Source of the DNA: an uncultured bacterium | GTDB lineage: Bacteria > Patescibacteriota > Minisyncoccia > Phycocordibacterales > CAINVO01 | Reading direction: 5' to 3' | NCBI GenBank assembly: GCA_903854195.1 | Contig: CAINVO010000017.1 | Location: 1-35,298 of the forward strand | Length of the DNA stretch: 35,298 bases | Part shown: piece after piece, positions 33,158-35,298 of the stretch | Position numbering within the stretch: position 1 is the first letter of the stretch | Layout of the letters: every line of letters begins with the position of its first letter | Translations under genes and position numbers: made by a program | The notes under the pieces: generated by a model | What the model was told of the DNA's origin: nothing | Database searches by the model: none | Seen by the model: the letters and a program-made list of their open reading frames with translations, nothing else

Positions 33158-33186
33158 AGGGTTATCGTAGCAAAAAATACTCTCGT

Positions 33187-33215
33187 TGACAAAACAAAAC
33201 CCGACCTGTATCCTT
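33187..33215 (+). promoter_or_regulatory. Near-consensus sigma70 promoter driving the T-box leader
   Basis: TTGACA (33187-33192), exactly 17-nt spacer, TATCCT (33210-33215). Confidence 0.7.
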
Positions 33216-33250
33216 TTCACTAGAAGTTTATTAAATAAACAAAATCTTAT

Positions 33251-33512
33251 ATTAAGGTCCCTTGTGAGCAATCACTAAGGGATTGGGCCTTAATGCTTTG
33301 TGAGACATGTTGTGTTTAGTTATGTCTCACAAAAAGGTGACTCTGCAATAGTGGAGATCCGGATGCCTCCGTAATCATGGGCAAATCATTGTCGGTTGTT
33401 CACGTTTCAAAGCGCGATTCAATGTCTGAGGTGATAAGAAAAAACTAAGGTGGCACCGCGGAAACCCGCCCTTATTACGCAAGGACTTTTTCTTGTTTAA
33501 TGAGGGCGGGTT
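33251..33512 (+). promoter_or_regulatory. T-box riboswitch leader (tRNA-sensing transcription attenuator)
   Basis: T-box core TAAGG(33446-33450)-TGGCACC(33451-33457)-GCGG(33458-33461)-AAAC-CCGC(33466-33469)-CCTTA(33470-33474) forms the canonical antiterminator with a 7-nt bulge; mutually exclusive with the downstream terminator. Upstream CGGA-TGCC-TCCG (33360-33371) resembles Stem III. Two further hairpins lie at 33251-33294 and 33297-33333. Confidence 0.88.
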
Positions 33513-33515
33513 TTT
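33463..33515 (+). terminator. T-box intrinsic terminator
   Basis: AACCCGCCCTTATTA (33463-33477) pairs with TAATGAGGGCGGGTT (33498-33512) with one G-U, followed by U-tract (TTTTT 33511-33515); 5' arm overlaps the antiterminator 3' strand. Confidence 0.9.
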
Positions 33516-33568
33516 ATTATGCCCGCAAAACACAACAACAAATAAACTAATAGTCCGTTCTTTAGAAT

Positions 33569-34381
33569 ATGAAAACATTAAATGTACCTAGCGAATTCCT
33601 GGCCAAATTTAAATTCGATCCAAGAAAAATTGGAATGATTGGGTGTGAGCGTGAATTTTTTCTCACAAACATCCACGGGGAAATTAAACCTCTTGCAGTT
33701 AAAGCTCTTGAAATTTTACCTTGTGGAAAAATGAGCATATACAGCTATGAACTTTCAGCCTGTCAACTTGAAGCTCATATCGGACCAGTTGAAATAGACG
33801 ATTTCTACGGAGCCCTGATGAATGTTCACGTACCGATGATTCAGGAACTTTTGAATCATGGCATCGGTGCCGACTTTCGTACTGTGGGGCCAAAAGATAT
33901 TCCGTTGGATATTTACCCTGATCCTTCTGGTAGATACCAGAAAATCACAAAGGAAATGCCAGAGGAAATACTCCGTGCCGCTTGTCGTGTCACCGGTACT
34001 CATTTCCATGTGGGAATGCCCGATCACGAAACTGCGCTCACTGTCTACAACGAAGTGATTAAGGATTTCGAATACTTTCGTAGTATCGGAAACTTAAGCA
34101 ATGGAAAAAGAATGTCCATTTACCACACCATGGCCAAGGATAATATTCCAAGGCACTACAATGACTGGGAAGAACTGCATGACTACTATTCCAAAAATGG
34201 ATACCAGGATGATCCAAGGAGATGTTGGCATCTGATACGCATTTCTGCCCATGGCACGATTGAGTTTCGGATGTTCGACAACACAAACGATCTTGATCTT
34301 GTTTATACATGGGCAAGAAAATGCTCGGTAGCGTGCAAAAAAGTTCTTGCAAGACTGAATCTTATTGAAGATTTGCTCTGA
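33569..34381 (+). CDS. Compact GCS2-type carboxylate-amine (glutamate-cysteine-like) ligase, 270 aa
   Basis: MIGCEREFFLTN, SYELSACQLEAHIGPVE, RVTGTHFHVGMPDHETA, HGTIEFRMFDNTNDL match the GCS2/YbdK family pattern; shorter than typical YbdK. Confidence 0.75.
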   Translation: MKTLNVPSEFLAKFKFDPRKIGMIGCEREFFLTNIHGEIKPLAVKALEILPCGKMSIYSYELSACQLEAHIGPVEIDDFYGALMNVHVPMIQELLNHGIGADFRTVGPKDIPLDIYPDPSGRYQKITKEMPEEILRAACRVTGTHFHVGMPDHETALTVYNEVIKDFEYFRSIGNLSNGKRMSIYHTMAKDNIPRHYNDWEELHDYYSKNGYQDDPRRCWHLIRISAHGTIEFRMFDNTNDLDLVYTWARKCSVACKKVLARLNLIEDLL

Positions 34382-34506: not shown

Positions 34507-35298
34507 ATGAAAACAGACAAAGAAAATAAAATGAATAAAAAACCCTATGTATTGATAAACGCAGCCACACATGGCGACGAAGAGATCGGTATTTCGGTTA
34601 TTAATATATTAAAAAAGTTAAAAATCAAAAATGGAAAGTTGGTCTTTAATATTGCAAACAAAAAAGCCCACAAACTCAAGAAAAGATTTATAGACCAAGA
34701 CCTAAACAGAAGCTTTCCAGGAAACCCAAATGGAAATCATGAAGAAAAAATAGCAACAAAAATCCTACCAAAAATTCAAGCAGCAGATATCGTTATTGAT
34801 ATCCACTCCACAACTAGCCAACTCAAAGACGCAATGATAGTGACAAAACTGGACTCACAAACAAAGAAAATGATTGGTGTAATAAATCCAAAATATTTAC
34901 TGTGTATGAATATTACTAAAAATAATGCGTTGATATCCGCAGCAAAAATTGGATTAGCATTTGAATATGGAAAAGATGCGAATAAAAAGGTAATTGAGAA
35001 AACAGCAGACGACATAAAGAAACTGCTTGAGTACCTAGATATGATTAATTCAAAAAAGGAAATCAAAGCGACTAAAAACATGGCGCCCCAGAAAACTGAG
35101 TATTTTAAGATCAATAAACATTTTTCTAAACATAATGGCGATCATCTCTCACCAAATATTAAAAACTACCAACTTGTAAAAAAGGGTGATGTGGTCGCAG
35201 TCAATGATGGCCAGAAAATACTAACAAAGGAAGACTTCTACCCTATCCTATTCGGAGAAAAAAACTATGAAAACATTTTTGGTTTTATGGGCAGGAAA
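34507..35298 (+). CDS. AspA/AstE-like (succinylglutamate desuccinylase/aspartoacylase) zinc-dependent deacylase, truncated by the window edge
   Basis: Read by eye, open to the window end: INAATHGDEEIG (HxxE), DQDLNRSFPGNP, IVIDIHSTTSQ. Absent from the ORF track because it has no stop in the window. Confidence 0.8.
   Translation, partial: MKTDKENKMNKKPYVLINAATHGDEEIGISVINILKKLKIKNGKLVFNIANKKAHKLKKRFIDQDLNRSFPGNPNGNHEEKIATKILPKIQAADIVIDIHSTTSQLKDAMIVTKLDSQTKKMIGVINPKYLLCMNITKNNALISAAKIGLAFEYGKDANKKVIEKTADDIKKLLEYLDMINSKKEIKATKNMAPQKTEYFKINKHFSKHNGDHLSPNIKNYQLVKKGDVVAVNDGQKILTKEDFYPILFGEKNYENIFGFMGRK

Follow-up and report, generated by a model that had tools for sequence, protein, structure and literature searches.

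Toward the end of the window, as we call the whole 35,298-nt stretch of DNA that was analyzed, a leader of about 290 nt (within 33186–33569; all coordinates are on the plus strand) precedes a gene for a compact YbdK/GCS2-like carboxylate-amine ligase of 270 aa (33569–34381) and a gene for an AstE/AspA-type deacylase (34507–35298; PF24827, 1.4e-20), which runs to the contig end. The leader is headed by a sigma-70-like promoter (33186–33214), with TTGACA at 33186–33191, a spacer of 17 nt and TATCCT at 33209–33214, and its intrinsic terminator lies 56 nt 5′ of the ATG of the ligase gene. The deacylase gene is conserved beside the ligase and belongs to the same unit, which adds to the initial annotation. 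Adjoining the ligase is also the sole tyrS of the genome, a gene that is found near the ligase in two other loci (L182, L189) as well.

Working parts of the leader

A short Stem I of 46 nt (33250–33295), supported by covariation in 13 leaders, consists of a lower helix (33250–33257 with 33288–33295) and an upper helix (33258–33267 with 33272–33282), separated on the 3′ side by a one-sided bulge of 5 nt, UUGGG (33283–33287). It is followed by a variable linker hairpin (33297–33333), Stem II (33339–33359) and the Stem IIA/B pseudoknot region, CCGG-AUGCC-UCCGUAAUCAUGGGC (33359–33382). Helices 4 and 5 of our alignment, which represent Stem II and the IIA/B elements, are conserved; the pairs of IIA were counted, while the IIB pseudoknot was read by eye only. 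The antiterminator (33447–33474) pairs AAGGTGGCACCGCGG (33447–33461) with CCCGCCCTTA (33465–33474) and carries the UGGC (T-box) bulge, and the terminator with its U-tract occupies 33460–33521, the hairpin itself spanning about 33460–33513. The folding energy is -8.3 kcal/mol for the antiterminator on its own and -35.8 kcal/mol for the terminator, and both elements require the strand CCCGCCCUU, as a T-box demands. The leader as a whole folds at -108.6 kcal/mol, against -76 kcal/mol for shuffled sequences (z = -6.2). Among relatives, the apical part of Stem I differs in both length and sequence, and the double T-loop end is accordingly absent. Indeed, the interdigitated T-loops of the long Stem I are missing from the window leader, but these define a long subclass rather than the T-box family, and known T-boxes with a short Stem I are also devoid of them.

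The Rfam gathering score for the T-box family (RF00230) is 93 bits, and a default Rfam scan at this score gave no match. The RF00230 search proposed in the initial annotation did return a match to 33289–33476 in a covariance-model scan with relaxed thresholds (E = 5.6e-5), but at 30.3 bits, below the gathering score. This score reflects curation, being set for T-boxes with a long Stem I, and does not mark a biological feature; none of the T-box matches in 199 genomes of the order reached it, including those 5′ of aspS, ileS and thrS; low RF00230 scores are therefore normal for the lineage. The placement of Stem I by RF00230 was rejected as misaligned: its first position falls within the 3′ strand of Stem I, and the linker hairpin is mistaken for Stem I itself. 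The true start, at about 33250, lies 5′ of the start of that alignment.

In the alignment of the 13 leaders, all of the Trp class described below, 91.4% of cells were paired, compared with 36–58% in slid controls, and 67 cells were doubly changed, compared with 21 after shuffling; both Stem I and Stem II covary strongly. A covariance model built from this alignment (R1) located a leader just 5′ of the ligase gene in 18 of the 45 ligase loci, with E-values between 1e-15 and 1e-23 (two of the 18, in genomes G061 and G149, are training members of R1). In all 18, an antiterminator and a terminator have a strand in common, and a UGGN bulge sits in the terminator-excluding antiterminator of the window leader and of 18 other ligase leaders. 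At one ligase locus (L184), the T-box is cut by the contig edge. About half of the ligase loci are without a T-box, and the ligase is thus not always under T-box control; the leaders of these T-box-less ligases gave no matches to other Rfam families except tRNAs. Members with a T-box are scattered over the ligase tree; the 11 changes, of which at least 4 are forced, mean that the T-box was repeatedly gained or lost.

By its working parts, the window leader is a T-box. The initial annotation had proposed as much, and homologous loci, covariation and the kept competition between antiterminator and terminator bear this out; the promoter, the antiterminator and the competing U-tract terminator that it described were all confirmed in the sequence, and the search that it proposed, for the same leader plus ligase in related genomes, is answered by the 18 loci above. 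That an intrinsic terminator alone resembles a T-box by chance, for which one could cite the RF00230 score below the gathering score, has a negligible probability in view of the covariation, the conservation across loci and the recurrence with the ligase and trp genes. Like the transcriptional class of RF00230, the leader has a specifier bulge in Stem I, Stem II, IIA/B elements and a UGGN antiterminator competing with a U-tract terminator; it differs in its Stem I of only about 46 nt without a double T-loop end, and in its host, a member of the Patescibacteria. According to a review (PMC7583486), a long Stem I is generally required for transcriptional control, and T-boxes with a short one mostly act on translation; a transcriptional leader with a short Stem I is thus unusual. 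The class II T-boxes of Actinobacteria, in the account of Sherwood 2015 as cited in PMC7583486, are translational, with a short or intermediate Stem I; going by that account, they resemble the window leader in a short Stem I without the elbow-binding end and differ in having a ribosome-site sequestrator, where the window leader has a terminator and a specifier in a one-sided 5-nt bulge.

Amino acid read by the leader

The initial annotation did not name the amino acid that is read; on the sequence evidence, it is tryptophan. One group of leaders has GGUCC-hairpin-GGGRUUGGGCC in common, and leaders of this class stand 5′ of the ligase in the window genome, G149 and G061 (and in G074, split over a contig end), 5′ of trpB in three genomes (G032, G111, G076) and 5′ of trpE in G103 (by Pfam), while in G024 the leader is followed by an LMW-phosphatase-like gene and then a trpD-like gene (Glycos_transf_3). 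R1 detects a leader in 31 of the 399 genomes of the order, and its new members, whose downstream genes were named from their translations, lie 5′ of trpS (G160), trpB (G144), trpE (G289, G397, G311), the ligase (G376) and others. The Stem I bulge is UUGGG, or CUGGG in some members, with UGG plus G invariant in trp-gene and ligase leaders. The tRNA-Trp genes of the examined genomes end in GCCA, or in G73 where CCA is not encoded; the UGGC of the window pairs fully with G73 of its own genome's tRNA-Trp, and the UGGU of four Trp-class leaders forms only a wobble with it. We base the assignment on the invariant UGG bulge, the trp-gene leaders of the same class and the fit between UGGC and G73.

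The base 5′ of UGG is U or C, and UUG and CUG are both leucine codons, so that the bulge could be read as leucine. We consider this very improbable and rejected it on the regulon, as the same leaders stand 5′ of trpS, trpB, trpE and trpD-like genes; moreover, the UGGC of the window fits the G73 of tRNA-Trp, while tRNA-Leu normally carries A73. The TBDB convention, by which the specifier comprises bases 2–4 of the bulge as counted from its 3′ end (PMC7778990), likewise picks UGG (33284–33286).

Tryptophan genes also surround the ligase itself. A TrpRS gene is present in at least 13 ligase loci; two TrpRS genes exceed the trpS cut-off in each of G061, G149 and G376, and one does in the window genome. 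tRNA-Trp occurs in 7 ligase loci, against four other tRNAs across all ligase loci scanned, and since G149 and G376 have another tRNA-Trp elsewhere, the copy in the cluster is extra. In these seven loci (L165, L170, L171, L174, L178, L180, L184), the tRNA-Trp has a divergent body and is mostly beside TrpRS. An extra tRNA-Trp beside an extra TrpRS is also a feature of the tRNA-Trp/TrpRS-A operons of CPR bacteria, which are archaeal-type with A73 (PMC5370408); unlike those, the TrpRS of the ligase loci exceeds the bacterial trpS cut-off, and the tRNA mostly has G73 and stands beside the ligase pair. No trpB over the cut-off was found in any of 11 ligase genomes checked, including the window genome, so they look like tryptophan auxotrophs.

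Several Trp T-boxes were seen in other surroundings. In L111 (G329), one precedes a GNAT-like gene and AstE adjoining TrpRS, perhaps with an acyltransferase replacing the ligase; in L117 (G243), one is followed by genes for an amino-acid dehydrogenase and for an aminotransferase, which may constitute a route to tryptophan from indolepyruvate. A family of proteins of about 265 aa lies 3′ of Trp T-boxes in four genomes (L019, L035, L053, L120); the member in L035 has no Pfam match, and in two cases a histidine-phosphatase-like gene comes next.

The ligase and its amidohydrolase partners

The reading frame at 33569–34381 was confirmed, with its ATG at 33569. NCBIfam YbdK/GCS models match the protein (5.9e-11), but at 38–42 bits against cut-offs of 176–409, and YbdK/glutamate-cysteine ligase models match six of six family members (best 4e-16), all below their cut-offs; the protein is thus a relative, and not a member, of these named families. 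PF04107, which the initial annotation had suggested as a check, left the window protein unmatched but matched two of six family members (best 2.1e-7), and Amidoligase_2 (Pfam) matched the window protein at 0.002. With the predicted structure (pLDDT 86.9), a fold search placed YbdK (1tt4/1r8g) on top (E = 2e-8, TMq 0.66–0.70), followed by plant glutamate-cysteine ligase and then glutamine synthetases, while a phmmer search of the PDB yielded no real relative. By profile and predicted fold, then, this is a compact ligase of the YbdK/GCS2 superfamily, and the family assignment made earlier stands on the NCBIfam models, the two PF04107 members, the predicted fold and the homologous loci. The ExE, HxHxG and GTIEFR-type motifs are invariant, which suggests that the enzyme is active. 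The predicted fold and these motifs are common to the YbdK/GCS2 ligases (PDB 1r8g, 1tt4; TIGR02050; PF04107), but those are about 370 aa long, compared with 250–270 aa in the window family, which falls far under the NCBIfam cut-offs and, unlike them, stands under Trp control with an amidohydrolase as partner.

The family was found in 12 of the 399 genomes of the order (one only marginally) and, with an alignment as query, in 45 loci of genome_contigs, nearly all from Patescibacteria, in agreement with the CPR lineage proposed initially; a single-sequence query of genome_contigs gave no match. An amidohydrolase of one of six kinds is present in 37 of the 41 CPR ligase loci. The AstE/AspA-type gene predominates (26 of the 41, nearly all directly 3′ of the ligase), followed by M20 (4), gamma-glutamylcyclotransferase (3), N-formylglutamate amidohydrolase (2), class-II GATase (1) and class-I GATase/C26 (1). 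Six kinds of amidohydrolase beside one ligase point to an amide that is both made and cleaved, probably with glutamate. In two loci with an M20 partner (L141, L146), a conserved two-hairpin leader (TATCCC...GATAGTC..ACTGCCTGCAC..GGCAGT..CTGTCGC), which has no Rfam match, lies 5′ of the ligase.

The thiol synthesis suggested in the initial annotation found no support, because regulon and neighbors point to tryptophan and not to cysteine. Membership of the GCS2 superfamily would accord with gamma-glutamylcysteine-type thiol synthesis under amino-acid control, yet the specificity is Trp, no thiol-pathway partner occurs among the recurrent ligase neighbors, and the protein falls short of YbdK-type enzymes by some 100 residues and scores far under the NCBIfam cut-offs; we therefore regard it as improbable.

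A proposed tryptophan switch and its setting in Patescibacteria

We consider it very likely that the leader controls transcription of the ligase and the AstE/AspA-type hydrolase as a T-box responding to tRNA-Trp, and hold the enzymatic step with less confidence. From the elements described above, we infer tRNA binding and switching as follows. When uncharged tRNA-Trp accumulates, UGG of the Stem I bulge would pair with its anticodon CCA, and UGGC of the antiterminator with the GCCA at its 3′ end; with the tRNA so bound, the CCCGCCCUU strand would be unavailable to the terminator, and RNA polymerase would read into both genes. With charged tRNA-Trp, the antiterminator would not be stabilized and transcription would stop 5′ of the genes. 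In other words, the pair is probably switched on when the cell is short of tryptophan. The ligase may form an amide, probably gamma-glutamyl, and the neighboring amidohydrolase may cleave such amides, as a module for supplying or using tryptophan in a bacterium that has no trpB. This is our favored reading of the enzymes, although weaker than that of the switch, and ligation under tryptophan shortage offers no obvious way to gain tryptophan.

A serious rival, though a distinctly less likely one, is that the unit is part of a resistance or production island for a TrpRS-blocking compound: the T-box would register the inhibition, the ligase and the hydrolase would alter the compound, and the more complete versions would add a second TrpRS that is insensitive, along with a second tRNA-Trp. 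The second TrpRS in G061, G149 and G376, the second tRNA-Trp in G149 and G376 and a nearby chorismate-mutase/methyltransferase fusion are consistent with this, but the window genome has one trpS and, within the contig, nothing beyond the ligase-AstE unit; no match to a known inhibitor pathway turned up, and ordinary trp genes elsewhere are under the same T-box class. The fusion recurs beside TrpRS and ligase in six loci (L153, L159, L164, L167, L174, L178). A still more speculative idea, which we think unlikely, is that Patescibacteria harbor a tryptophan-linked island not described before, with the ligase/hydrolase pair at its core. In its fuller form, with its own second tRNA-Trp, TrpRS and methyltransferases, the island would amount to a dedicated Trp-tRNA pathway that uses the T-box as its sensor and either produces a small molecule derived from tryptophan or confers resistance to one.

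T-boxes have been described mainly from Firmicutes and Actinobacteria, yet they are common in Patescibacteria. The window genome has a second one, 5′ of thrS. Within the order, RF00230 matches at E ≤ 0.01 occur in 60 of 199 genomes, none over the gathering score, mostly 5′ of aspS, ileS, thrS and serS (read from translations); in a sample of the phylum, matches at E ≤ 1e-4 occur in 121 of 365 genomes, 12 of them over the cut-off. About one-third of sampled Patescibacteria genomes thus match the family, most of them under the Rfam cut-off and hence easily missed. The T-boxes of thrS, ileS, aspS and serS in Patescibacteria (L016–L089) seem to hold their specifier (ACC, AUC, GAC, AGC) in a tiny apical hairpin loop, as in GUGG-CUACCAA-CCAC 5′ of thrS, with UGGA, UGGU or UGGC as the discriminators predict. 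A literature search covering neither preprints nor most subscription journals found no paper joining T-box and CPR, and with that coverage we claim no priority.

The tRNA-Trp switch proposed here, 5′ of a glutamate-ligase-like enzyme and an amide-cleaving partner, belongs to a candidate-phyla bacterium with a tiny genome. Its short Stem I and terminator make it a natural minimal transcriptional T-box, and the codon that it reads ties tryptophan to an uncharacterized ligase family. The extra tRNA-Trp/TrpRS pair near the ligase makes a tRNA-linked pathway in these symbionts testable.
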